Source of the DNA: Pontibacillus chungwhensis
GTDB taxonomy: Bacteria > Bacillota > Bacilli > Bacillales > BH030062
Assembly (NCBI RefSeq): GCF_030166655.1
Contig: NZ_CP126446.1
Location: 992,001 to 1,056,000, forward strand
Direction of reading: 5' to 3'
DNA length: 64,000 nucleotides
Shown here piece by piece: positions 3,511 to 37,090 of this stretch; the stretch's first letter is position 1, and each line of letters begins with the position of its first letter. A program made the position numbers and the translations under genes. The notes under the pieces are model-generated. The model made no database searches. It saw only the letters and a program-made list of their open reading frames with translations, and was not told where the DNA came from.

Positions 3511-4572
3511 ATGTCTTGGAAAGGTCTTCTATCACACTATCAATCTCTTTTACCCGTAACAGAGGATACGCCTAAGCTTACGTTGCTCGAGGGAAATACA
3601 CCACTACTCCCTCTTCAGAAGCTATCAAAAGAATATGGCATTGATGCCTATGTGAAGATCGAAGGCGCAAATCCAACGGGCTCTTTTAAAGACCGTGGCA
3701 TGGTCATGGCGATGGCAAAAGCTGTTGAAGAAGGGGCGGAAGCCGTCATTTGCGCCTCTACAGGGAACACATCCGCTGCTGCAGCTGCCTATGCGGCAAG
3801 AGCAGGTCTTCGCTGTATTATTGTAATTCCAGACGGGAAGATTGCACAGGGGAAACTGGCTCAAGCTGTTATGTACGGAGCTGAAGTCTATGCCATTGAA
3901 GGAAACTTCGATGAAGCGCTGAAAATTGTGAAGCATCTGGCAGAAACCGATAACTATACGCTCGTGAACTCCATTAATCCGTATCGGATGGAAGGGCAGA
4001 AGACAGCTGCTTTTGAAGTGTGCGACGTATTAGGAAAAGCTCCAGACCATCTGCTGATTCCTGTCGGGAATGCGGGGAACATCACGGCTTACTGGAAAGG
4101 GTTCAAAGAGTATCACAACGCTTATAAGACAGGTCTGCCGAATATGAGAGGCTTTGAAGCAAGCGGCTCTGCTGCGATTGTTCGAGGAGAAATCATTGAA
4201 CAACCAGAAACGTTGGCAACAGCGATACGAATTGGTAATCCCGCGAGCTGGAATCAAGCGCTTGATGCATCCGGAACTTCAGGCGGTGCCATTGGAGAAG
4301 TGACGGATGAAGAGATTGTAGAAGCCTACCAGTGGCTCGCAGAGAATGAAGGCGTGTTTGCAGAACCCGCTTCTTGTGCTTCAATAGCTGGGCTATTTAA
4401 GTCCTTAAAACAAGGAGACGTACAAAAAGGTTCGCAAGTTGTATGTGTCCTAACAGGAAACGGCTTAAAGGATCCAACCACAGCGATTGAAAAAAGCGCT
4501 ATTCAACCAACGGTTCTACCAAATGACCTTGAAACGGTAACAAATGCGATCCAAAATGGGGTCTTATCATGA
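3511..4572 (+). CDS. thrC: Threonine synthase
   Basis: PLP-dependent enzyme that converts O-phosphohomoserine to threonine, the last step of the pathway. The PLP lysine is Lys60 in [25 protein letters not shown] and the phosphate-binding [12 protein letters not shown] fit the fold-type II family. At 353 residues it is the short Bacillus-type enzyme. It starts two bases after hom, with the GGAGAGG site inside the hom 3' end, and its last four bases overlap thrB (ATGA), so the three genes should be translated from one message. Confidence 0.97.
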
Positions 4573-23396: not shown

Positions 23397-23516
23397 TTTA
23401 TGAAAACCTCCTTTCAATCGATCCTCATCATTGGTACAACCCTTATTGCTCCATCCCCTGTGGAATATTATGTTAAGATCAGAACGTAAACCGTCAAAAA
23501 AAGGAGTGTGGGGACC

Positions 23517-24091: not shown

Positions 24092-24247
24092 ATTTTAGGG
24101 AAGGTACTTCTTTTCTCCGAAGTATATTTTAGAAGGGGAATAATTGGATATATATGCTAAAATGAGAGGATAAGAGCTTCTCCGTTTGGCAAGCACCAAG
24201 AGAGCATCTGATAGATTGACATATCAAGAGTATAGGAGATGGGTAAC

Positions 24248-24967
24248 ATGAGGATGGATCGATTATCGCCAGAGAAAGCGGCTGGTTTGTTTGTAGATGC
24301 ATTTTATCCAAAGTGTAAGGCTGCGTTGTTGGCTGGAAGTACGGTTCGAGGGGAGGAAACGGAGAAGTCGGATTTAGATATTATTATTTTTGATGATACG
24401 CGGCTAGCTTCGTACCGAGAATCTCTCATCGCTTATGAATGGCCTGTTGAAGTATTTGTATACAGCTTGAGTTCCTATCAATCATTTTTTGAAAGAGATG
24501 TAGAACGAGCGCGTCCGTCTTTGCCCCGAATGGTGGCGGAAGGGGTTATCATAAAAGGATGGGATGTGGTAATGCCGATCAAAGCAGAAGCAGATTATCT
24601 TTTAAATCTTGGACCGGAGAAGTGGACAGAAGAAACGATTCGAACGAAGCGTTATTTCCTCACGGATACGCTGGATGATTTCATAGGAAGTCAGGACAGG
24701 ACGGATGCCATGTGTGTATCGTGGACGCTAGCGGATAAGCTTAGTGAATTTGTGCTCCGGACGAACAGAAAATGGATTGGATCTTCTAAGTGGATGATTC
24801 GCTCTTTGAAAGACTATGATCCTCAATTTGCGACTCGTTTCATCGATGCGTTTGACCGTTTTTATACATATGGGGATAAAGAGAGCGTTATTCAGCTGAC
24901 AGAGGACGTGCTGCAGCCTTTTGGTGGCAGGCTGTTTGAAGGATTTGTGCTGGGGGAGAAGGAGTAA
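24248..24967 (+). CDS. Nucleotidyltransferase-fold protein
   Basis: 239-residue soluble protein with the polymerase-beta-type NTase signature: AGSTVRGEETEKSDLDIIIF has the GS motif and the DxD metal pair. The rest is a helical domain with no motif that I can assign. It could modify a small molecule such as an aminoglycoside, or an RNA. ATG 24248 is nine bases after GGAG; the ATG at 24239 is too close. It is the first of three closely spaced genes (21 bp to the Nudix gene), so probably an operon with the ANT(6)-like gene. Confidence 0.8.
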   Translation: MRMDRLSPEKAAGLFVDAFYPKCKAALLAGSTVRGEETEKSDLDIIIFDDTRLASYRESLIAYEWPVEVFVYSLSSYQSFFERDVERARPSLPRMVAEGVIIKGWDVVMPIKAEADYLLNLGPEKWTEETIRTKRYFLTDTLDDFIGSQDRTDAMCVSWTLADKLSEFVLRTNRKWIGSSKWMIRSLKDYDPQFATRFIDAFDRFYTYGDKESVIQLTEDVLQPFGGRLFEGFVLGEKE

Positions 24968-24987: not shown

Positions 24988-25506
24988 ATGTTTTATAAGG
25001 AATACCGGGAAGAAGAGGCACATGAGAAACACTACCCTGTGCGTCGCAGGAAAGCTGTACGAGCCGTGATCTTGAAGGAGGATAAAATCTTACTGATTAA
25101 GACGAATCAAGATATTTATGCTTTTCCAGGTGGCGGGGTTCAATCAGGTGAGCGAGATGATGAAGGGGTTATCCGGGAAGTGGCTGAAGAAACCGGTTAT
25201 ACTGGATGCGCGGTGCATGAGAAAGTTGGGGCGGTCGTTGAGAGTAACGTCGATCATAAAAAGACCGACCAGTTATTTGAAATGGTTTCTGACTACTATA
25301 GGTGTGAACTCATCCATGAGAAAAAGGTTCCGCAACAGTTAGAGGATTATGAGCAAGATGAAGAATACGATCCTCAGTGGGTGAAGATTGAAGATGCGCT
25401 CAGACAAAATGAATCAGAAAGAGGGGCTCAAGAGGCGCGGTGGCTCAAGCGGGAAATCTTTGTCCTTAAAATGTTACAAAAGCAGTTAACGGAGGGGACT
25501 CGATGA
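24988..25506 (+). CDS. Nudix hydrolase
   Basis: 172-residue pyrophosphohydrolase. A complete Nudix box G-x5-E-x7-REVAEETGY is present (GGVQSGERDDEGVIREV and following), just after LLIKTNQDIYAFPGGGV. The substrate is unknown; nucleoside diphosphate derivatives are usual. It has an AAAGGGGGACTAGG site. The last four bases overlap the start of the ANT(6)-like gene, indicating translational coupling. Confidence 0.92.
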   Translation: MFYKEYREEEAHEKHYPVRRRKAVRAVILKEDKILLIKTNQDIYAFPGGGVQSGERDDEGVIREVAEETGYTGCAVHEKVGAVVESNVDHKKTDQLFEMVSDYYRCELIHEKKVPQQLEDYEQDEEYDPQWVKIEDALRQNESERGAQEARWLKREIFVLKMLQKQLTEGTR

Positions 25507-26372
25507 GGAGTTATGAGGAAATGATGGCTCTCATCTTAGGACGTGCCGAAGAAGATGAGGCCATTCGACTGGTTGAGTTAAACGGTTCAAGGGCGAACCC
25601 ATGGGCAGAAGAGGACCGGTTTCAGGATTATGACATTGTCTACTACGTGGAAGAACTCGAGCCGTTCTTGCATGATCCTTCCTGGATTGACGTTTTCGGA
25701 GAGCGGATCATCATGCAAATGCCTGACTTGAACGATGGTCCTCCGCGAGACGGAAAGTGGAAGCGGTTTGCTTATTTGATGCTGTTTGAGGATGGGAACC
25801 GGATTGATTTGTCTCTAGTTTCCCTGGACCATCTTGATTCTCATCTGCAAAATAAGGACTACCGTAAGATCCTGTTAGATAAAGATAACCGTATTCAGCG
25901 TTCCGTTGATACCGTCAGCGACCCCTTTCTGATTCAAAAGCCCACCCAACAGGACTTTGACAGATGCGTCAATGAGTTCTGGTGGGTGAGCACCTATGTG
26001 GCTAAAGGGTTGTGGAGAGAAGAGCTGACGCTTTCTAAGTACCTAATGGAAGAGCCTGTCCGGGATATGCTGATCCGCATGTTGTCCTATAAAGTTGGCA
26101 TTCGGACGAACTTTCTTGTGGGGGCCGGAAAAGGTGGAAAAGACCTTCAGAAATACTTAGAGAAGGATGAGTGGACTCAGCTTGTCCACACTTATCCAGA
26201 CGGGGACTATGAAAACATGTGGCAGGGGTTATTTAGAATGTGTGACTTGTTTGAAGAAACTTCAGAAGAGGTGGCTGAGGAGCTAGGGTTTACGATCTCC
26301 ACAGAGGGGCAACGGGTCAGGCCGTATCTCGAACGTGTTCACAACCTCCCGAAAAAAGGTAGTCAGTCTTAG
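25503..26372 (+). CDS. Aminoglycoside 6-adenylyltransferase (ANT(6)/AadK-like)
   Basis: 289-residue adenylyltransferase of the family that transfers AMP from ATP to streptomycin. LNGSRANPWAEEDRFQDYDI has Gly28-Ser29 and the metal-binding Asp42-x-Asp44. GNRIDLSLVSLDHL and the tryptophan-rich ECVNEFWWVSTYVAKGLWRE-like segment (here beginning DRCVNEFWWVS) fit the family, as does the length. Chromosomal ANT(6) relatives are common in Bacillaceae and need not confer resistance. It overlaps the Nudix gene by four bases and ends at a strong terminator. No mobile-element sequence is nearby, so I see it as resident. Confidence 0.87.
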   Translation: MRSYEEMMALILGRAEEDEAIRLVELNGSRANPWAEEDRFQDYDIVYYVEELEPFLHDPSWIDVFGERIIMQMPDLNDGPPRDGKWKRFAYLMLFEDGNRIDLSLVSLDHLDSHLQNKDYRKILLDKDNRIQRSVDTVSDPFLIQKPTQQDFDRCVNEFWWVSTYVAKGLWREELTLSKYLMEEPVRDMLIRMLSYKVGIRTNFLVGAGKGGKDLQKYLEKDEWTQLVHTYPDGDYENMWQGLFRMCDLFEETSEEVAEELGFTISTEGQRVRPYLERVHNLPKKGSQS

Positions 26373-27510: not shown

Positions 27511-28467
27511 GGAAGAGGATACGGCAGTGGGATAGCGTTCTTTAAGGCGATCCCCTAAATACGTGGCAAGCTGAAGCATTCCGTATACTCCTGACACTGC
27601 TTCTGCATCACTATTGTAGTTGGTGTTCGTGTTCACGTCATACGTATAAAGATTGCCGTTATGATCTTGTATGGCTTCAATGCCAGCTACTTTAATGTTG
27701 TTTGAAAGAAGGAAGGACTCGTATGATTGGATAATGGGATCACTATACCCTTCAAGAATTTCAAACTTTGCGCCACCTGTTTCTTCAGATCCGGTTGGGC
27801 AATAGAGATCGTCAATCGTGCACGCATCAGCCGGGCACAATTCAAAGCCTTCAGACGTATCAACTTTTACTGCATAAAGGAATTTTCCTCCGACGAATTC
27901 GTGACGAACGATATAAGGTTTAGGAGCTTCGATATATTGCTGTACAAGCGTAATGCCGTCGACAGGTTCTTCAAATGAATCCCCGTACACATATTCCTGA
28001 AGAGCTTCAATAGAATGGAACAGCTGAACGCCTTGCCCTTTGCCGGCACGATTATGCTTTGTAATAAAGGGTGCCAAGTCCAGCTGTTTGGCTGCTTCAA
28101 TAATTTGATCTTTCCCGACAGCTGTGATGGTCTTCGGTGTCGTAATCCCTTCTTGGTTTAACGCCATATACTGATTTACTTTGCTGAGCTCAAGTCGCAA
28201 AGCACGGCTTCCATTTACAACCGTACGATCGTGGCGTTCGAGCCAGGCCAGAACAGCTTCTGTAAACTCCGGTGCGAAGCGGTGATCCCGAGTGTGAGAG
28301 GATGCGCTCATTCTATTGTAAAAGATGCCTTCTGGTGGTTCCTTTGAGAGATCAATCGTTCCCTGATCTAAATGCCATAATTCAAAAGGCAATTCTAGTT
28401 CTTCTAAGCGGTTCGTTAAATGATCTGTCCATTCATCATTTTCGTGTAAGACGTAAATCTTTGTCAT
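27508..28467 (-). CDS. ATP-grasp protein, RimK-like ligase
   Basis: 319-residue ATP-grasp enzyme. The order is an N-terminal pre-ATP domain (KIYVLHENDEWTDHL, with RMSASSHTRDH), then the nucleotide-binding part (PFITKHNRAGKGQGVQLF, TLVQQYIEAPKPYIVRHEF), and a metal-binding end (VAGIEAIQDHNGNLYTYDVN, NTNTNY). Such enzymes join a carboxylate to an amine or thiol through an acyl phosphate; the substrates are unknown. It overlaps the upstream flavin monooxygenase by four bases (ATGA), so it belongs to the same S-box-controlled transcript, which links it to sulfur metabolism. Confidence 0.83.
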   Translation of the reverse strand: MTKIYVLHENDEWTDHLTNRLEELELPFELWHLDQGTIDLSKEPPEGIFYNRMSASSHTRDHRFAPEFTEAVLAWLERHDRTVVNGSRALRLELSKVNQYMALNQEGITTPKTITAVGKDQIIEAAKQLDLAPFITKHNRAGKGQGVQLFHSIEALQEYVYGDSFEEPVDGITLVQQYIEAPKPYIVRHEFVGGKFLYAVKVDTSEGFELCPADACTIDDLYCPTGSEETGGAKFEILEGYSDPIIQSYESFLLSNNIKVAGIEAIQDHNGNLYTYDVNTNTNYNSDAEAVSGVYGMLQLATYLGDRLKERYPTAVSSS

Positions 28468-29525
28468 TGTGGTACCTCCTTGAAGTGTGTGCGTTTCTCT
28501 TCTACGAGTGGCATAACATCACGACTGAAGCGCTCCATTTCTTCTAGCTGCGGGGAGCATTGAAGAAGGAGAAGGTCGAGCCCAGCTTGTTCATATTGAA
28601 GGATGCGCTCAGCGATCGTTTCTGGCGTGCCGATGAGCTTCGGGCGTAGTCCTCGGTTAGAGACCGAGTAATCTTGCAGGTCTACTTGTTGCTCAAGCTG
28701 CGACTTACTCGTGAAATCCTGGTAGCCTGCATAGGCCCCTGAGTCTTTCACGTTTGTGATTCGATTTAATTCTTCAAGCGCTTCTTCTTCTGTATCTCTG
28801 CAAATGACGTAAGCGGCCATTCCAAACGATTGGAGCGGTTCATGCCCGCTTAAAGATCGCCGTTCTTTCATATCGTTAATCTTTGTTTTTATTTCATCTA
28901 CGGTGCCGCCGTGCATGACGTAGGCGTCGCAGTGATTTACGATGGTTTGTTTTCCTCTGTTGCTCTCCCCACCTGCATATAGTTTCGGATAAGGCTTTTG
29001 GATAGGCTTTGGATGAAGGTGCGTGTTCTCGATAGAATAGAAGTTGCCGTTATAGCTGACGGGTTCTTCTTCAGTCCAAAGGGATTTTAAAACCGTTAAG
29101 AATTCATCGGTTCGGTCATATCGCTCATCATGAGCGGTAAAGGAGCCTCCGTACTGTTTGGCTTCTTCCTCCCACCAGGCGGAAACGACGTTTAGTGTGA
29201 ATCGGCCACCTGAGATCCTGTCAATATTGGCGGCCATCTTAGCCGTGATGGCTGCATTGTGAAAGTTTGGCCGGACCGCTGCCATAATCTCCGTTTTCTC
29301 TGTCACAGCAGCCAAAGCTGCTGCAGTCGTCCAAGCTTCTAAGGAATCCTGATCGGTTCCTTTAATATCATTTAAATACAACTCTGCAATAAGCGTTGAA
29401 TCAAACCCTAATTGTTCGCCTTGTTGCACGACCTTTTTCGCATAATCGAATGTAGGAGGCATACTCTCATGCTCCACATTACGCAACCAGCCGCCAAAGA
29501 TCGGTAACCAATATCCGTATCTCAC
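28464..29525 (-). CDS. LLM-class flavin-dependent monooxygenase under S-box control
   Basis: 353-residue luciferase-like monooxygenase of the alkanesulfonate/dimethylsulfone type (SsuD/SfnG-like). RYGYWLPIFGGWLRNVEH at the start, AVRPNFHNAAITAKMAANID, RISGGRFTLNVVSAWWEEE and LYAGGESNRGKQT are family-typical. It likely uses FMNH2 and O2 to cleave an organosulfur compound, freeing sulfur. I start at GTG 29525, ten bases after GAGGAG, because the longer frame begins with a non-conserved stretch. It is the first gene after the SAM riboswitch, so it should be switched on when SAM is low. Confidence 0.87.
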   Translation of the reverse strand: MRYGYWLPIFGGWLRNVEHESMPPTFDYAKKVVQQGEQLGFDSTLIAELYLNDIKGTDQDSLEAWTTAAALAAVTEKTEIMAAVRPNFHNAAITAKMAANIDRISGGRFTLNVVSAWWEEEAKQYGGSFTAHDERYDRTDEFLTVLKSLWTEEEPVSYNGNFYSIENTHLHPKPIQKPYPKLYAGGESNRGKQTIVNHCDAYVMHGGTVDEIKTKINDMKERRSLSGHEPLQSFGMAAYVICRDTEEEALEELNRITNVKDSGAYAGYQDFTSKSQLEQQVDLQDYSVSNRGLRPKLIGTPETIAERILQYEQAGLDLLLLQCSPQLEEMERFSRDVMPLVEEKRTHFKEVPQ

Positions 29526-29632
29526 CTGACTCAGCTCCTCTTTGTAATAGTATATCAGATTAAACAACCCTAGTTACTCGGAATTAAGAAAAAAGCGTCT
29601 AAATTCCTTCTATATATATGAAGGAATGATTG

Positions 29633-29784
29633 AAAAAACCCCTCTACTTGTCTGATTGACGAGAAGAGGGGTTGTAAGGGTGTCCCGCTCTCTCATCTTG
29701 TTTGGAATTGGCACGGTATTCACATCAGAACCCGTTGCCGAGGTTTCAAAGGGCCAGTCCCTCCACCTCTCTTGATAAGAAGAG
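29633..29784 (-). ncRNA. SAM-I (S-box) riboswitch with terminator
   Basis: On the minus strand the aptamer (about 29784 to 29688) holds the S-box core in order: CTTATCAAGAGAGGTGGAG, GGACTGGCCC, TGAAACCTCGGCAAC, GTGCCAATTCC and AGATGAGAGAG. An intrinsic terminator (29674-29633) with a CAACCCCTCT / AGAGGGGTT stem and T6 follows. In this class, SAM binding favours the terminator, so the downstream monooxygenase and ATP-grasp genes are repressed when SAM is plentiful. Confidence 0.95.
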
Positions 29785-30049: not shown

Positions 30050-31315
30050 GTGAACATTGGGAGAAGAATTAAATACGTAAGGCAATTACGTGGTTTATCA
30101 CAGAGTGAACTTAGTGTTGGAGTTGTTTCAGCTACTCACCTTAGCAATATTGAGTCAGGTAAGTACGTTCCGTCGAAGGATATTCTTGTGCTCTTTGCAG
30201 AACGGCTTGGGGTGGAGGAGGACTACTTGTTTAATTACGATCAGAAAGATCAGACGATAATTGATCTGATAGTAGAACTGAAAGGTGCGGTCATTATTGG
30301 TGATGCCCCTAGAGTAGGGAATCTGTTAGATCGTTTGGAATCTTTAGAGAAGCAAGTCGTTAAGGGCATGTATACTGAATTGCTATATGCACTTATTAAA
30401 GGAGCCCATCTAATGAAAACAGGAGGCAATTCAGATGAATTGTCTTCGATTCAGCTATTAGTTAATCTTTATGTAAAAGAAGATGAGAAGATAGACGATG
30501 CGGTGCTTTTGTCGTTCTATGATTACTATTACGGCTTTTATCATTTTCAACATAATCATTTACAAAAAAGCTTAAAACACTACAACAGGCTCGTAGCGCA
30601 AACTCATGATGAATTAGAAAAAGGCCTATTCTTCTACAATATCTCCTTGTTGCATAAGCACAACAGAGAGTATTATAAAGCGATTGATGCAGCGAAAGAA
30701 TGCCTTGATGTGTTCCAAAAAAAGCTCGAATGGGATCGGTTAGGCGAAACGTACAACATGATCGGGGCTATGCATTGGGAGATGGATGAGTGTGAAACGG
30801 CAATGGAGTATCTCCTTAAGGGGGAGAAGATTGTTTCCATCACGAACAATGAGAAGTTAAAAAGCCGCATTCATCATAATTGTGGACTGATTAATAAACA
30901 ACTGGGTGATTACGGGGCGGCCATCTATTATTTCAGGAAGTCGATAGAGACTAAAATAGAGAGTGGAGACCTGCACAATATCGTTCTTCCCTACCGTTCC
31001 TTAATCGGAAGTTTAATAGACCGTGATAAGATTGAAGAAGCTAAACTCGTTCTTGATCACGCACGCGAGCATTGCCAGTCTGAACAGGATCAGTACTTTT
31101 TAAAAGAATTAGAAGCCTTTATCTTTGAGAAAGAGGGAAGATTTGAAGATTTTGAACGCTGCATGAATGACTTAATAAAAGAATTAGAAAAACGCGACTA
31201 CCACTTTAAATTAAAAGGACTCTATGAACGGCTTGGTGATTATTATTATAAGAATAGGAAATATAAATTAGCTGCTTCTTATATGAAGAAAGAAATTCAG
31301 TTAAGCTCCGTCTAA
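30050..31315 (+). CDS. HTH-TPR transcription regulator, RRNPP-type peptide sensor
   Basis: 421-residue cytoplasmic regulator. An N-terminal XRE-type helix-turn-helix (about 1-60; IGRRIKYVRQLRGLSQSEL, then THLSNIESGKYVPS) is followed by a long all-helical tetratricopeptide region (about 75-415) with repeats such as LGETYNMIGAMHWEMDECET and LYERLGDYYYKNRKYKLAAS. This HTH plus TPR layout is that of PlcR, NprR and relatives, which bind an imported short peptide. The GTG start is seven bases after GGAGG. It lies just upstream of a small secreted-peptide gene and the RiPP locus, in the order typical of a regulator and its cognate signal. Confidence 0.9.
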   Translation: MNIGRRIKYVRQLRGLSQSELSVGVVSATHLSNIESGKYVPSKDILVLFAERLGVEEDYLFNYDQKDQTIIDLIVELKGAVIIGDAPRVGNLLDRLESLEKQVVKGMYTELLYALIKGAHLMKTGGNSDELSSIQLLVNLYVKEDEKIDDAVLLSFYDYYYGFYHFQHNHLQKSLKHYNRLVAQTHDELEKGLFFYNISLLHKHNREYYKAIDAAKECLDVFQKKLEWDRLGETYNMIGAMHWEMDECETAMEYLLKGEKIVSITNNEKLKSRIHHNCGLINKQLGDYGAAIYYFRKSIETKIESGDLHNIVLPYRSLIGSLIDRDKIEEAKLVLDHAREHCQSEQDQYFLKELEAFIFEKEGRFEDFERCMNDLIKELEKRDYHFKLKGLYERLGDYYYKNRKYKLAASYMKKEIQLSSV

Positions 31316-31486
31316 GCCATGTAGTGGAGTCCATTTAAGTGGATAACTATAAAGCGTTGCAAAACTTTCCCGTAAAACCGGCAATTTTATTGAGTGTTTT
31401 TGTAATGTTTTGTTTTATCTCTTTATTATTCAAAATAATCAAAAATTTATGTATGATGTTTATAGATTATTCAAGGAGGGCTTATC

Positions 31487-31618
31487 GTGAAAAAGTTAAC
31501 TACTGTAGTAGCAGCTATTCTATTGACGCTAGGTTTTGGGATCTTTCAGGGAGGATTCGATATGGCTGGTGAAGAGTCTGACGTAGCCGGGTTAAATGAC
31601 GAAGAGGTAGTTAGCTAA
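31487..31618 (+). CDS. 43-residue secreted peptide, probable RRNPP signal precursor
   Basis: Short gene starting at GTG after AAGGAGGG. The N-terminus is a signal-peptide-like stretch (Lys-Lys, then VVAAILLTLGFGIF). The C-terminal half is polar and acidic, ending AGLNDEEVVS. The size, export signal and place right behind the HTH-TPR gene match PapR/NprX/Phr-type pro-peptides, in which the C-terminal 5-10 residues are trimmed and re-imported. A well-formed terminator follows about 50 bp later. A 77-codon frame (31339-31572) overlaps it in another phase but has poorer start signals. Confidence 0.75.
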   Translation: MKKLTTVVAAILLTLGFGIFQGGFDMAGEESDVAGLNDEEVVS

Positions 31619-31723: not shown

Positions 31724-31745
31724 GTTGCTCAGCTTCATTCACGTG

Positions 31746-31789
31746 AGTCTATAACTACTGTTGATCAACAGTAGTTATAGACTTTTTTA
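31746..31789. terminator. 38-bp perfect palindrome with T-run
   Basis: Positions 31746-31783 read the same on both strands (AGTCTATAACTACTGTTGA and its exact complement) and are followed by TTTTTTA. It could form a long terminator hairpin, or act as an operator for the RRNPP regulator. The preceding transcript is already terminated at 31723, so the duplication is odd. Confidence 0.75.
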
Positions 31790-31846: not shown

Positions 31847-31961
31847 AACCTTTGTCTGTAGACAAAGGTTCTAGCGATATTGAATGGATTAAGGGGCAAA
31901 AATCTGTAATATTCGGCATAGTAGTAAAACTATTCAAAAAAGTTAGAATATTTTGTATGAT
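31847..31961 (+). promoter_or_regulatory. Inverted repeat and candidate promoter of the peptide operon
   Basis: A perfect inverted repeat, AACCTTTGTC-TGTA-GACAAAGGTT (31847-31870), precedes a candidate promoter TTCAAA (31933-31938), 17 bp, TATGAT (31956-31961), about 65 bases before the first peptide gene. The weak -35 would fit an activator-dependent promoter, possibly bound by the HTH-TPR protein. Apart from this and the 38-bp palindrome I see nothing in the 400-bp gap. Confidence 0.45.
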
Positions 31962-32024: not shown

Positions 32025-32087
32025 ATGAAAATCGAAGTGAAAAAGACTGAAAAACTTAAACCAACATTCATGCCATACGGTGGCTAA
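32025..32087 (+). CDS. RiPP-type precursor peptide 1
   Basis: 20-residue peptide: leader MKIEVKKTEKLKPT, core FMPYGG. The start follows AAGGAGG with a spacing of eight bases. The leader is nearly invariant in five tandem genes, whereas the part before PYGG varies, as in a leader/core division. The C-terminal diglycine could be the site of activation by the downstream E1-like enzyme. It was missed by length-limited gene calling. Confidence 0.85.
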   Translation: MKIEVKKTEKLKPTFMPYGG

Positions 32088-32137
32088 TCTGAAAGGGTAA
32101 TTCGCTTTACCAATCTTTAATAAAGGAGGACGTCTAC

Positions 32138-32200
32138 ATGAAAATTGAAGTCAAAAAGACTGAAAAACTTAAACCAACATTCATGCCGTACGGCGGCTAA
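32138..32200 (+). CDS. RiPP-type precursor peptide 2
   Basis: 20-residue peptide identical to copy 1 (leader MKIEVKKTEKLKPT, core FMPYGG), with synonymous changes at the DNA level. The 50-bp spacer to copy 1 and the spacer to copy 3 are close repeats, pointing to tandem duplication. The synonymous substitutions show that the protein sequence has been kept by selection. AAAGGAGGA precedes the ATG. Confidence 0.85.
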   Translation: MKIEVKKTEKLKPTFMPYGG

Positions 32201-32251
32201 TCTGAAAGGGTAATTCGCTTTATCAATCTTTTAAAAAGGAGGTTTGTCTTC

Positions 32252-32314
32252 ATGAAAATCGAAGTGAAAAAGACTGAAAAGCTTAAACCAACATTCATTC
32301 CATACGGTGGCTAA
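32252..32314 (+). CDS. RiPP-type precursor peptide 3
   Basis: 20-residue peptide with the same leader and core FIPYGG, differing from copies 1 and 2 only by Met to Ile in the core. It has an AAAAAGGAGG site. The conservative swap in the variable position and an unchanged PYGG end fit a modified core. Confidence 0.85.
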   Translation: MKIEVKKTEKLKPTFIPYGG

Positions 32315-32364
32315 ACCTTAACGCGTAGTTAGCACGACCAATCTTTATAAAGGAGGTAATCTTC

Positions 32365-32436
32365 ATGAAAATTGAAGTGAAAAAGACTGAGAAGCTTAAA
32401 CCAACTATTCTTGTTCCACCTCCGTACGGTGGCTAA
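32365..32436 (+). CDS. RiPP-type precursor peptide 4
   Basis: 23-residue peptide: leader MKIEVKKTEKLKPT, core ILVPPPYGG. The core is three residues longer and proline-rich, but keeps the PYGG end. An AAAGGAGG site lies before the ATG. Confidence 0.83.
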   Translation: MKIEVKKTEKLKPTILVPPPYGG

Positions 32437-32485
32437 TTCGAGAATATACTTAATGGCATCAAAAAAAATAAAGGAGGCGTTCTTC

Positions 32486-32554
32486 ATGAAAATCGAAGTA
32501 AAGAAGACTGAACAACTGAAGCCGACAGTTATTCCACCTCCATATGGTGGCTAA
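32486..32554 (+). CDS. RiPP-type precursor peptide 5
   Basis: 22-residue peptide: leader MKIEVKKTEQLKPT (one change, Lys to Gln), core VIPPPYGG. It has an AAAGGAGG site. It is the last of the five and lies 113 bp before the adenylating-enzyme gene. The gap contains a GGGCCGTA / TACGGCCC stem (about 32618-32642) followed by a short T-rich run, which could reduce read-through so that peptides exceed enzymes. Confidence 0.83.
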   Translation: MKIEVKKTEQLKPTVIPPPYGG

Positions 32555-32616
32555 GGCCCGCCTTGTGAAGCGGAAGGTCTCTGCTCCAGTTCAATAAATA
32601 GGAAGATCGATCACAG

Positions 32617-32648
32617 GGCCGTATATGAAAATGTACGGCCCTATTTCT
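32617..32648 (+). terminator. Attenuator-like hairpin between peptide genes and modifying enzymes
   Basis: AGGGCCGTA (32617-32625) pairs with TACGGCCCT (32634-32642) around an eight-base loop, followed by ATTTCT. The T-run is weak, so partial termination is more likely than a full stop. Confidence 0.65.
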
Positions 32649-32667
32649 ATCAATAGGAGGGGTTAGA

Positions 32668-33801
32668 ATGAATGAAGCCTTTAAAAGAACATTAAGACCG
32701 GTGGTGCAGTTAGAGGAAGCGATAGAAGTTGGGATGAATGAGCAGCGTACTGAGATCAATGATCCAGATGGATTGGTTTACCGACTAACCGAGCTTTTGG
32801 ATGGCAGTCGTACAAACGAAGAAGTTGCGACTAGGTTAGGGATTACAGAGGAAGAAGTAAATGAGGCGATCGAGGCCCTTGATGGACTTGGATTTATTGA
32901 ATCTGTTGAAGTCCCAAACTCATTTCTTGATTCTGAACTTGAGCGATATGAAGCCAACTTGAACTATTATTCGAGCTATTCGAATCTGTCAAAAAGTAAG
33001 TATGACTATCAACGTAGTTTAAAGGACGCTAAAGTAGCCGTTATTGGTCTAGGAGGCGGGTGTCTGACGACAGCTTATTTCGCAGGTCTCGGTGTAGGGG
33101 AAATTCGGGGTGTAGACTTTGACACAATCGGACGCAGCAATTTGAACCGCCAGTTTATCTTTAATGAAGAGGATGTAGGTCGGTTAAAATCAGAAGTTGC
33201 GCAGGAAAAAGTAGAAAAGATCAATCCTGATGTGAAAGTGAAGATGTATAACCGGGAAATTACGTCCCATCATGATTTGTTAGATATCATTGATGGCTGT
33301 GACATCGTTGTAAGCATGATCGACACACCTGCGATCGTGGCCAATAGATGGGTGAACGCTGCTTGTTACATAAAAGGAATTCCGTTTTATCAAGGGGGAT
33401 TCCTGAATAAAATCGTGATGTGGGAGCGGCTCGACCCTGCTAGTGGTTCTTGTTATGATTGTCGTCTTATTAACGGGCTCGCTCAGGAAGACACAGAAGA
33501 AAGCCGCTTAAGAGCCGTGTATAACCAAATTTTCTCAAGGAGGAATACCGGCTTTGCTCCCCATGTTTCGATGCTTACCGGTTTCTTTACTTCTGAAGTG
33601 GTGAAATACCTAACAGGATATGCGGCATTATCAAAGCCCTATTCTCAGTTAAATACAGAAACGATGGAACTGAAGCAGAGTGATTTTGAATTTACCAGGG
33701 TGCCGAATTGCCCTACTTGTAGTCAAGACTACATCGAGGAGATCTCAACCTTAGAAGACCTTATCGAATGCGCGAAGGAAATGAGGGTCGTCCATGGGTA
33801 A
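32668..33801 (+). CDS. ThiF/MccB-like E1 adenylating enzyme with N-terminal RRE (PqqD-like) domain
   Basis: 377-residue enzyme. Residues about 33-80 form a PqqD-like winged-helix pattern (LVYRLTELLDGSRTNEEVAT, then EEVNEAIEALDGLGFIE), which in RiPP enzymes binds the leader peptide. Residues 122-350 are an E1-type adenylation domain: nucleotide loop AVIGLGGG (125-131), Asp150/Asp152, SNLNRQF (157-163), Lys174, MIDTPAIV with Asp219, and zinc cysteine pairs Cys262-x2-Cys265 and Cys348-x2-Cys351. Relatives adenylate a C-terminal Gly (ThiS, MoaD) or Asn (MccA). The five upstream peptides ending in GG are the natural candidate substrates. It has an AGGAGGGG site and overlaps the protease gene by eight bases. 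Confidence 0.9.
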   Translation: MNEAFKRTLRPVVQLEEAIEVGMNEQRTEINDPDGLVYRLTELLDGSRTNEEVATRLGITEEEVNEAIEALDGLGFIESVEVPNSFLDSELERYEANLNYYSSYSNLSKSKYDYQRSLKDAKVAVIGLGGGCLTTAYFAGLGVGEIRGVDFDTIGRSNLNRQFIFNEEDVGRLKSEVAQEKVEKINPDVKVKMYNREITSHHDLLDIIDGCDIVVSMIDTPAIVANRWVNAACYIKGIPFYQGGFLNKIVMWERLDPASGSCYDCRLINGLAQEDTEESRLRAVYNQIFSRRNTGFAPHVSMLTGFFTSEVVKYLTGYAALSKPYSQLNTETMELKQSDFEFTRVPNCPTCSQDYIEEISTLEDLIECAKEMRVVHG

Positions 33802-34981
33802 CCTGGTGAAAGAGCATTGTCTCGATTGTACCCACTTATCCATCCAGCAGGACGGGGAGGAGTACACAATTGGCGATCCGGTCATCGGAGAGTTCATTCG
33901 TGTGCCAGAGGTAGCGGCAGATGTTGTAAGAGGGTTCGATGGGGAGAAGACGATTGAAGAAGTGAAAGAGAGTGTGGAGGCGAAATACGGTGAAGAAGTC
34001 GATGTACTCGATTTTGCTGAAACGCTCCTTGAAATGGGCCTTATACTCAAAATAAATGGTGTTTTATTAAATGAAGAAGTAGATCGTGAGGTAAATCCAG
34101 GTCTGCAGAAGGCAGGTAGCATCCTTTTTAGTAAGCCATTTATGGTGCTCTACACCTTGTCTGCCATAGCGGCTATCTTTCTCATTGCTTATTCTCCATC
34201 CCTATTCCCGAGCTTTAGAGATGTCTTCTTGTTTGAATCAGTCGGTCTCAGTGCGATGATGATCTTAATCACCATATCGGCTACAACGATTATTCATGAG
34301 TTTGCCCATGTACTAGCGGCCAATAGGTTAGGTGTAAAAACAAAGGTTCAGCTAAATTTACGCATGGTCTTCCTTGTGGCAGAAACGGATATGTCAGGAC
34401 TCTGGTCAAGGGCCAAAAAAGAACGGTATACGCCGTACTTGGCTGGGATGGCTTGGGATGGGGTTATGATTTTAACCTGTCTTTTAATAAAACTTTTCGT
34501 GCCAATCGCGTTTATCGCATCCTTTGCCCAGATGGTCACGTTCTTTCTCTTATTTGGGGTCATCAGTCAGTTTGTTATCTTCTTAAGAACGGATATGTAC
34601 TTCGTGCTGATTAACTGGGTGAACACATCAGCGCTTCATGAGCATAGTCTTGTGTTCTTACAGAAGATCTTCCTTAGTAAACGTCAAGACGAGTGGCAAC
34701 GTTTAGCCCCTCATGAGAAGAAGCATGCGAAGTGGTTTTCGTTGCTTTATATGTTCGGAGGAGCTGTAGCGACCTTTTTATTCGTTTACTTTCAGATTCT
34801 CCCGTCCCTTTACGGGTTGCAGCAGGCGTATGAGAATATTACACAGCATGCGTTAACCAACCTCTATTTCTGGGATGGAATTCTAGTCGTGGTAGCGCTC
34901 TTGATTCAAGTAGGGGCTTGGTTAATTGGACTGCGCACAGCGCGAAACGAACGCCAGGCGAATCAGGCGGTCAGTGCTTAA
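33794..34981 (+). CDS. Membrane M50-type metalloprotease with N-terminal PqqD-like domain
   Basis: 395-residue membrane protein. An N-terminal CxxC (Cys9, Cys12) is followed by a PqqD-like domain (about 22-88; YTIGDPVIGEFIRVPEVAAD, then LDFAETLLEMGLILKING). Then come about six helices with the site-2-protease zinc motif HEFAH (168-172) and a possible third ligand Asp267 in FLRTDMYFVLINW. It probably cuts the leader from the modified peptide at the membrane, and perhaps aids release, by analogy with YydH of the YydF system. The gene overlaps the E1-like gene, so the two are coupled. No ABC exporter gene follows. Confidence 0.87.
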   Translation: MGNLVKEHCLDCTHLSIQQDGEEYTIGDPVIGEFIRVPEVAADVVRGFDGEKTIEEVKESVEAKYGEEVDVLDFAETLLEMGLILKINGVLLNEEVDREVNPGLQKAGSILFSKPFMVLYTLSAIAAIFLIAYSPSLFPSFRDVFLFESVGLSAMMILITISATTIIHEFAHVLAANRLGVKTKVQLNLRMVFLVAETDMSGLWSRAKKERYTPYLAGMAWDGVMILTCLLIKLFVPIAFIASFAQMVTFFLLFGVISQFVIFLRTDMYFVLINWVNTSALHEHSLVFLQKIFLSKRQDEWQRLAPHEKKHAKWFSLLYMFGGAVATFLFVYFQILPSLYGLQQAYENITQHALTNLYFWDGILVVVALLIQVGAWLIGLRTARNERQANQAVSA

Positions 34982-35941: not shown

Positions 35942-37090
35942 ATGGAGGAAAATAGATTTTTGAAACTAATTGGTGGTAAGACCTTTTTTTACATAGTAGC
36001 TTTCTTTCTTTTTGTTGGAGTAACCATTTATATATACACTAAAATTTCATTTATCTTTTATCCACTAGCGGTCATTTTATCTACTATAGTACCTCCAATA
36101 ATCCTGGCATTCGTAGCCTACTATTTATTAAATCCAATTGTAGATTTGCTCGAGAGGTTAAGGATTAAAAGAATTTGGGGAGTCATCATTCTTATTCTAG
36201 GCTTTAGTGGTGCTTTAACTGGAATGATCTTGTTAACTGCTCCATCTATCGAAGCGCAGATCAAAGATTTAGTTCAAACCTTCCCTGATTATCTAAAACA
36301 GCTAGGAGATACGGTGACTCAATGGGTACAAAGTTCATTTTTAGGTCCATATTATGATGATGGTTATAACTGGGTAATGGAAAGGTTAAGTGAATTGCCA
36401 CAATTAATTGGAACTTATATTTCTAATGGTTTTCAAGGGGTACAGAATGTCGCTAGTACGATTACAAATACGATTGTGTCCATTGTAACCTTTCCATTTA
36501 TCTTATTTTTCTTATTAAAGGATGGTAAAAGGTTTCAACGTTTTGTCATTAAATTATTTCCGCCGAAATTTAGAGATGATACGAAACAAATCTTAACTAA
36601 TATTGATATTCAAGTTGGGTCCTATATCCAAGGGCAGATTATTGTCGCTACTGTGATTGGCATTCTATTATTCATTGGTTACCTGATCATAGGTCTTGAT
36701 TATGCATTTACATTAGCCATTATTGCCGCAGTCACAAGTGTTGTACCCTATTTAGGACCAACAATTGCAATTATTCCAGCTGCTATCATTGCCATTGTTA
36801 GCTCCCCATTTATGTTTATAAAGCTAGTCATTGTATGGATCGCAGTCCAATTTTTAGAAGGGAATTTCGTTTCTCCGAATATCATGGGTAGAACTATGAA
36901 AATTCATCCATTAACGATCATCCTTGTTTTAATGGTTGCGGGTAATTTATTTGGTGTTGTCGGTGTGATTCTTGGTATTCCGGGCTATGCAATCGTAAAG
37001 GTAATTGGTTCTTATCTTTTCTATAAGTTTAAGCAACGATATAACCAGTATTACGGGGAAGACCGTGGATATTATGAAATGGAAGAGTAA
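35942..37090 (+). CDS. AI-2E family (DUF20) membrane transporter
   Basis: 382-residue polytopic protein of the AI-2E family, whose members export or exchange diverse solutes, including Na+(Li+)/H+ exchange in some halophile relatives. Features are N-terminal helices, a long non-membrane middle (SIEAQIKDLVQTFPDYLKQL) and the family's C-terminal core (YIQGQIIVATVIGILLFIGY, VTSVVPYLGPTIAIIPAAII, LEGNFVSPNIMGRTMKIHPL). The frame is open back through the tRNA. I choose ATG 35942, about 12 bases after AAAGGAG. It is more AT-rich than the genes before it. Confidence 0.9.
   Translation: MEENRFLKLIGGKTFFYIVAFFLFVGVTIYIYTKISFIFYPLAVILSTIVPPIILAFVAYYLLNPIVDLLERLRIKRIWGVIILILGFSGALTGMILLTAPSIEAQIKDLVQTFPDYLKQLGDTVTQWVQSSFLGPYYDDGYNWVMERLSELPQLIGTYISNGFQGVQNVASTITNTIVSIVTFPFILFFLLKDGKRFQRFVIKLFPPKFRDDTKQILTNIDIQVGSYIQGQIIVATVIGILLFIGYLIIGLDYAFTLAIIAAVTSVVPYLGPTIAIIPAAIIAIVSSPFMFIKLVIVWIAVQFLEGNFVSPNIMGRTMKIHPLTIILVLMVAGNLFGVVGVILGIPGYAIVKVIGSYLFYKFKQRYNQYYGEDRGYYEMEE

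Follow-up and report, generated by a model that had tools for sequence, protein, structure and literature searches.

A probable M50-coupled branch of ThiF-type RiPP loci in Pontibacillus chungwhensis and related Bacilli

A stretch of 64,000 nucleotides from the salt-loving bacterium Pontibacillus chungwhensis (assembly GCF_030166655.1, contig NZ_CP126446.1, positions 992,001 to 1,056,000 of the forward strand; hereafter the window, in whose own numbering positions are given) contains a candidate locus for ribosomally synthesized and post-translationally modified peptides (RiPPs). Five tiny peptide genes of 20, 20, 20, 23 and 22 codons are followed by genes for an E1-like enzyme (E1) and a membrane protease of family M50, all on the plus strand. 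The first two peptide genes (32025–32087 and 32138–32200) encode the identical protein MKIEVKKTEKLKPTFMPYGG with the core FMPYGG, the third (32252–32314) has the core FIPYGG, the fourth (32365–32436) has ILVPPPYGG, and the fifth (32486–32554) encodes MKIEVKKTEQLKPTVIPPPYGG with the core VIPPPYGG, each gene being preceded by an AAGGAGG-type ribosome site. A leader of 14 residues is near-identical across the five precursors, which amount to four distinct peptides and cores; the boundary between leader and core after residue 14 is an assumption. The E1 gene (32668–33801) encodes a ThiF-like adenylyltransferase of 377 aa with an N-terminal RiPP recognition element (RRE), and its reading frame shares 8 nt with that of the M50 intramembrane protease (33794–34981, 395 aa). 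A hairpin with a weak T tail in the gap between the precursors and E1 (32615–32642, plus strand) is at most suggestive of an attenuator; terminator-like sites numbered 4, against a shuffle mean of 3.0.

The leaders were compared in all pairs among 14 copies, five from the window, four from a P. chungwhensis locus (L005) and five from P. salipaludis (L006). Summed over the pairs, the codon differences comprise 401 synonymous and 37 non-synonymous ones, and the differences at the first, second and third codon positions number 37, 0 and 408; among the 126 single changes possible in the first leader, 24 are synonymous. Because the differences are almost confined to third codon positions, the leaders are in all likelihood translated and maintained at the protein level, and the codon pattern indicates that the leaders are under protein-level selection. 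A first-pass annotation, made from the letters of the window, had described five tandem genes of 20–23 codons with near-identical leaders, followed by E1 and an overlapping M50 gene. This layout is confirmed, and the selection on the leaders excludes chance.

That annotation had also stated that all cores end in PYGG, which is true of the five window cores but not of their relatives, with ends such as AG, IS, TS, YR, NW and HA. In the window's clade of the E1 tree (20 rows), the last precursor residue is G, S, V, A, I, N, R or W, therefore a C-terminal Gly is not required, and the earlier proposal that the core is activated at this Gly is not upheld. Better conserved is the third residue from the C-terminus (-3), which is Tyr in 11 and His in 9 of the 23 distinct precursors of the clade (20 together), with Tyr or His at 8/133 of the remaining core positions. 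When residues are numbered from the start of the core instead, the most regular position reaches 12/23 at best. Since the core length after residue 14 varies from 5 to 10, the -3 register is with the C-terminus; a binomial p for it ignores relatedness and was set aside. A C-terminus register would fit C-terminal activation with a fixed partner, and recognition alone would give the same pattern. A bond to His as the acceptor would be labile, so that recognition or backbone capture is the likelier reading for the His-type precursors.

The E1 enzyme matched Pfam ThiF at 6.3e-46, and a profile built from 18 relatives matched MccB at 2.3e-54 and PaaA at 3e-48, the PaaA match spanning profile positions 2–348 and so taking in the RRE region. 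R161, K174 and D219 as well as the zinc-type cysteines C262/C265/C348/C351 are invariant in all 18 E1 sequences. The spacing of the former three (13, 45) equals that of Arg167/Lys180/Asp225, the catalytic residues of EnfB according to the part of a review that we draw on here and below (PMC12250964). The E1 N-terminus aligned with that of a Pantoea plasmid protein (L143), annotated only as ThiF family and treated here as PaaA-like, with an hhalign probability of 95.7%; this and the other hhalign probabilities each come from one comparison with no decoy set. Three marks of ThiF/E1-like (TLAT) RiPPs are found here, with adjacent precursors that combine a conserved leader and a variable core, the catalytic Arg/Lys/Asp and, by homology, an RRE fused to an E1-like adenylation domain. 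C-terminal activation is the best inference for the action of E1.

The top match of E1 in the PDB is MccB, which is the point in favor of a microcin C-like system, where E1 would add a nucleotide to the peptide C-terminus to yield a Trojan-horse antibiotic. We regard this as highly unlikely, since the MccB chemistry uses a C-terminal Asn, which ends 0/5 window precursors and 1/23 clade precursors. In addition, no MccD/MccF-like gene was recognised among the 15 window proteins scanned with Pfam (23.5–40 kb, not every open reading frame), and a GNAT gene at 23508 lies 9 kb off. Radical SAM (S-adenosylmethionine), YcaO and lanthipeptide enzymes were likewise not found in these 15 proteins, and within that scope the earlier statement that none lies nearby holds. 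The E1 fold and the PYGG tails would also suit a ubiquitin-like or ThiS/SAMP-like system, in which a GG tail is activated so that it can be conjugated or used in sulfur transfer. Such an activation is extremely improbable, as the substrates are 20–23 aa long and not beta-grasp, the GG is lost in relatives, the E1 N-terminus is RRE-like and the PADLOC E1-E2 models match only the common E1 core, about residues 98–244; these limited matches also led to the rejection of a defence-system identity.

M50 peptidases have as their hallmark an HExxH motif and a third zinc-ligand Asp, and both (HExxH at 168–172, D267) are invariant in the 12 M50 sequences compared and lie in the membrane by hydropathy, as expected of an M50 leader peptidase. 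Among these 12 sequences, PqqD was matched in nine and the M50 family in nine (E up to 0.01), and the M50 N-terminus aligned with that of E1 at an hhalign probability of 89.4%; the protease probably carries its own N-terminal, PqqD-like RRE. The window M50 matched NCBIfam daptide_HExxH weakly (9.5e-7, 28 bits, cut-off 300). Proteases of this family act in several RiPP pathways, namely EpeP, TglG and TmoG, and EpeP is thought to cut and export a RiPP, according to the part of PMC10885120 used in this work. TglG and TmoG act on a C-terminal residue (the same part of PMC10885120), which would suit a pearlin-like scaffold, in which M50 would clip a small C-terminal piece, activated or modified beforehand, from a leader that then serves again. 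This is very improbable here, because no PEARL-like gene occurs among the 15 scanned window proteins and because some loci have several varied precursors (more than one in 8/45 M50-coupled places), which points to the core as the product.

M50 homology alone was found in 59/397 genomes, and it was not used as locus evidence because five M50 loci without E1 (L067–L071) exist. These encode RRE-like M50 homologues, their neighbours include a MASE12-HD protein (L070) and an AAA protein (L067), and they probably represent a separate system. In two other loci, an alpha/beta hydrolase gene overlaps the end of M50 (L054, 9721–10566, Pfam Abhydrolase_1; L055, 9604–10449, a similar open reading frame).

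Upstream of the precursors, a gene for an RRNPP-like regulator of 421 aa (30050–31315, plus strand) matches Pfam HTH_3 (4.8e-11) and TPR_12 (2.1e-10), without a match to RNPP_C at E up to 1. It is followed by a gene for a Phr-like peptide of 43 aa (31487–31618, plus strand), which has a hydrophobic N-terminus, a C-terminus DVAGLNDEEVVS kept in three species, and no Pfam match. A helix-turn-helix and tetratricopeptide-repeat regulator adjoining a small gene for a putative secreted peptide is the layout of an RRNPP pair, and the Phr-like peptide is a candidate pheromone, its hydrophobic start pointing to secretion. A promoter/operator element occurs in two copies on the plus strand, one upstream of the Phr-like gene (31425–31457, ATTATTCAAAATAAT-N12-TATGAT) and one upstream of the precursor operon (31929–31961). 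The pattern AYTATTCAAAAWART-N12-TATGAT, with up to 2 mismatches, has only two sites in the whole genome, and the reversed-pattern control has 0; as it was derived from its two sites, refinding them is no test, and it is the absence of others that counts. The paired 15-mer was the best among 662 -10-like window sites (12/15, the runner-up 10), and the pattern occurs once in L005 and once in L006, being exact before the precursors and altered before the Phr-like gene. A general promoter scan found 8 sites, where shuffled sequences gave a mean of 7.0, and lends no support by itself. Downstream of the Phr-like gene and ahead of the precursor operon lies an intrinsic terminator-like hairpin of 18 pairs with a T tract after it (31745–31784, plus strand), from a scan whose total was not above shuffles.

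The regulator may act on both promoter copies. Its orthologues (81–100% identity) occur in exactly the 3/8 genus genomes that have E1, a fourth genome having only a 25% match. In another lineage an RNPP_C regulator directly follows M50 in L053 (Pfam), and open reading frames of near-identical start do so in L114–L116; a search for a PapR-like gene after the RNPP regulator in L053 and L114–L116 gave no convincing candidate. Quorum control of the locus is likely from these gene arrangements, and the regulator and the Phr-like gene are counted as parts of the locus beyond its earlier limits of 32025–34981. Since an RRNPP-like gene adjoins the operon, the mini-peptides could themselves be pheromones of the regulator, cut by an Eep-like M50 and capped by E1; SHP pheromones indeed carry GG at their end and employ Eep, a metalloprotease (PMC13361665, used in part). 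A separate Phr-like gene with its own copy of the element stands between regulator and operon, however, which makes the pheromone role unlikely. The leader of the mini-peptides is also charged, which SHP precursors are not known to be.

The same gene set recurs in other Bacilli. E1 was detected in 3/8 genomes of the genus, one additional family member being negative, and at E up to 1e-35 in 18/397 genomes of the order and 28/398 of the class. At E up to 1e-60 it was detected in 7/392 genomes of the order of a further genome (G611), and smaller family searches gave 7/80, 4/7, 2/2 and 1/4; the genome sets of the genus, order, class and family searches overlap. Combined, these are 57 E1 places, found with the window E1 at set thresholds and with a bias toward close relatives, and 45 of them (43 genomes, 20 genera) have M50 within 1200 nt downstream. 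A leader-like peptide is present in 47/57, including one probable false positive (in L127, which has another, likelier precursor and no M50) that does not affect the 39/57 with both M50 and a leader-like mini-precursor, and a major facilitator superfamily (MFS) gene is downstream in 5/57. The counts leave aside four rows from plasmids and a MoeB/ThiF-like one (L002). The trio of leader-like peptide, E1 and M50 is thus shown to recur, but the PYGG ends are not kept. In the E1 tree of 61 rows, from which L097 was excluded for its broken frame, the MFS rows form one clade (100/100) and the M50 rows for the most part belong to two large groups; the label changes four times over the whole tree. Some other E1 lineages have an MFS or ATP-binding cassette gene where M50 would stand. 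These related gene sets suggest a widespread branch of a known class of peptide natural products.

Individual loci depart from the common form. An expanded version of the system in L125 (3038–8163, minus strand) has eight leader-like precursors with an E1, after which come one more precursor, another E1 and M50. The precursor MKIKAKKVEKIKPTVAAGCCCCCGCC of L117 (5144–5224, minus strand) has a Cys-rich core and adjoins the same E1 and M50 types. Ten genomes of the genus g156 (L081–L086, L088–L090, L093) share the identical 18-aa precursor MKIQAKKVESVRTTAVAA, unlike the variable cores elsewhere. As to mobile elements, E1 matched 88 of 72,556 plasmid records, all at <60% identity, and 7 of 50,697 phage records, none covering 80% of E1; of these seven, four have ThiF or MoeB as their annotation and the other three have none. 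A scan of viral contigs gave 2 loci with partial E1 matches, and the PHROG family phrog_19840 (unknown function) matched E1 at 4.9e-43 over residues 29–356. The PHROG match indicates that some phages or prophages have relatives of the RRE-E1; there was no sign of a phage-borne origin of the window locus in the phage records, viral contigs or PHROG.

We consider it probable, though well short of certain, that the locus is of the ThiF-type (E1-like) RiPP class and represents a new, M50-coupled branch of it, with adenylation, capture, leader removal by M50 and quorum-tied expression. In this scheme the RRE of E1 would bind the leader MKIEVKKTEKLKPT, and E1, to judge from homology and the conserved residues, would use ATP to adenylate the C-terminal carboxylate of the precursor. 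E1-like RiPP enzymes adenylate a carboxylate, which is then attacked by different nucleophiles (PMC12150305). Here the capture of the acyl-adenylate might be independent of the last side chain and registered to the C-terminus. Speculatively, the captor would most likely be intramolecular, either the side chain of Tyr/His(-3) or a nearby backbone group, or alternatively a small amine. M50 would then cleave the leader in the membrane and let out a product of 6–9 residues from an operon without an exporter gene, and expression would be tied to the RRNPP-like regulator and the Phr-like peptide via the shared promoter element.

As a special case of this M50-coupled scheme, the chemistry could be enterofaecin-like, exactly as proposed for EnfB, giving a C-terminal imide, macrocycle or amide, and the two systems would then differ in nothing but protease and core sequence. 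The short precursors, a V-[KR]-K leader motif and the same catalytic spacing speak for it, as do related leaders in the WWIIF-type precursor of L066 and the WWIII-type precursor of L142 from Niallia; moreover, the backbone N of the -3 residue is said to attack in EnfA (part of PMC12250964). The L142 precursor, MKKVTVRRATKVEATTWWIII, is encoded at about 3715–3790 on a Niallia taxi megaplasmid, and the L066 locus branches beside the window's group in the E1 tree (82/88, not starred, long branch). The WW motif is nevertheless absent from the window cores, and enterofaecin itself still awaits detailed NMR (nuclear magnetic resonance) work on its exact structure (PMC12150305); we therefore regard this chemistry as possible but rather unlikely. 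More tentative, and to be taken as doubtful, is the idea of a widespread class of self-released mini-RiPP signals, in which the product is a ring made by E1 from the C-terminal carboxylate to the -3 residue (a Tyr ester, a His-mediated bond or a backbone imide), leader cleavage and release of the ring of 6–9 residues are both the work of an RRE-guided intramembrane M50 without a dedicated exporter, and a single precursor family provides many Bacilli with quorum-controlled, strain-variable signals or toxins.

Several observations weigh against the proposed M50-coupled pathway. The first-pass annotation had placed an RRE on both enzymes, which the profile and hhalign results uphold for E1; for M50 the RRE is probable only, since both the PqqD and the M50 matches of the window protein fall under the Pfam cut-off and its N-terminus gave no alignment with that of the Pantoea ThiF-family protein (1.6%). 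AlphaFold2 models from the window and two Pontibacillus sequences were unusable (mean pLDDT confidence 42.0 for E1 and 43.3 for M50). Within the clade the -3 Tyr/His rule fails only at L123, in each of its three precursors, and among the 14 distinct M50-coupled precursors from outside the clade just two follow it, both with His; the window's 20-row clade itself has modest support (93/76, not starred). No precursor was found in 6/45 M50-coupled E1 places (L119, L121, L091, L126, L094 and L097), of which L121 borders the end of its contig, while in L097 the E1 frame is broken and a candidate peptide has no ribosome site. L122, a member of the window clade, has precursors without M50 downstream. 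As the three genomes of the genus that have the regulator are closely related, the co-occurrence events are few. The nearest recognised transporter-like gene, of the AI-2E family (35942–37090), lies beyond a divergent gene and a tRNA and was not counted in, though it may have a role.

Elsewhere in the window, a SAM riboswitch (29690–29781, minus strand) lies upstream of a luciferase-like monooxygenase gene (28464–29567, minus strand). A protein of the streptomycin adenylyltransferase family is encoded at 25503–26372 (plus strand; Pfam E 9.5e-109), and near it lies a second, weakly nucleotidyltransferase-like gene (24239–24967).

The first-pass annotation took the locus for a new RiPP type. RRE-ThiF RiPPs have already been described, however, and the portion of the review used here covers the microcin C, pantocin, GRC and enterofaecin types and links some ThiF RiPPs to quorum sensing (PMC12250964). 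As ThiF-type RiPPs are a published class, the locus is a new variant and not a new kind. No pairing of a RiPP E1 with M50 was found in the titles and abstract openings of the open-licence literature, and the term M50 does not occur in the review PMC12250964; the open-licence literature searched likewise yielded no description of a branch coupled to M50, of its leader family, of the -3 rule or of the RRNPP link. The branch is compact, with a substrate of 20 aa and two enzymes, it is M50-coupled in 20 sampled genera, and very different C-termini are tolerated. ThiF-type RiPP enzymes yield linkages that differ from one another (PMC12150305; PMC12250964 in part), and the C-terminus-registered Tyr/His rule predicts the site of the chemistry in substrates small enough for synthesis, which makes the reaction directly testable. 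If M50 also releases the product, this would be a RiPP maturation without a dedicated exporter.

The enterofaecin system (EnfA/EnfB) shares with the window a very short precursor (21 aa there), an RRE-E1 enzyme, the R/K/D spacing and a quorum-sensing neighbourhood (part of PMC12250964). It has the core WWIVI and four transporter proteins, whereas in the window the cores vary and contain no WW, M50 is present, there is more than one precursor and the operon lacks an exporter. In place of the enterofaecin leader motif (V/I)RKA, the window has V-[KR]-K without the following A. The indolylamide (ind) system, with IndF, likewise has an RRE-ThiF enzyme, a protease and C-terminal activation (PMC12150305). 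Its precursor has Trp at -4 and it employs an M16 protease and a transporter; in the window these are Tyr/His at -3, M50 and no transporter in the operon. MccB of microcin C and PaaA of pantocin are the closest solved RiPP relatives of E1, but the partner genes differ and the C-terminal Asn of MccB is not kept. The epipeptide protease has a radical SAM epimerase as its partner, and no radical SAM gene was found beside the precursors in the Pfam-scanned set. A membrane M50 in a RiPP pathway is shared with the epipeptide (EpeP), pearlin (TglG/TmoG) and daptide systems (PMC10885120, in the part used). The pearlin protease is partnered by the PEARL system and the daptide protease by the daptide set, whereas the partner of M50 in the window is E1.

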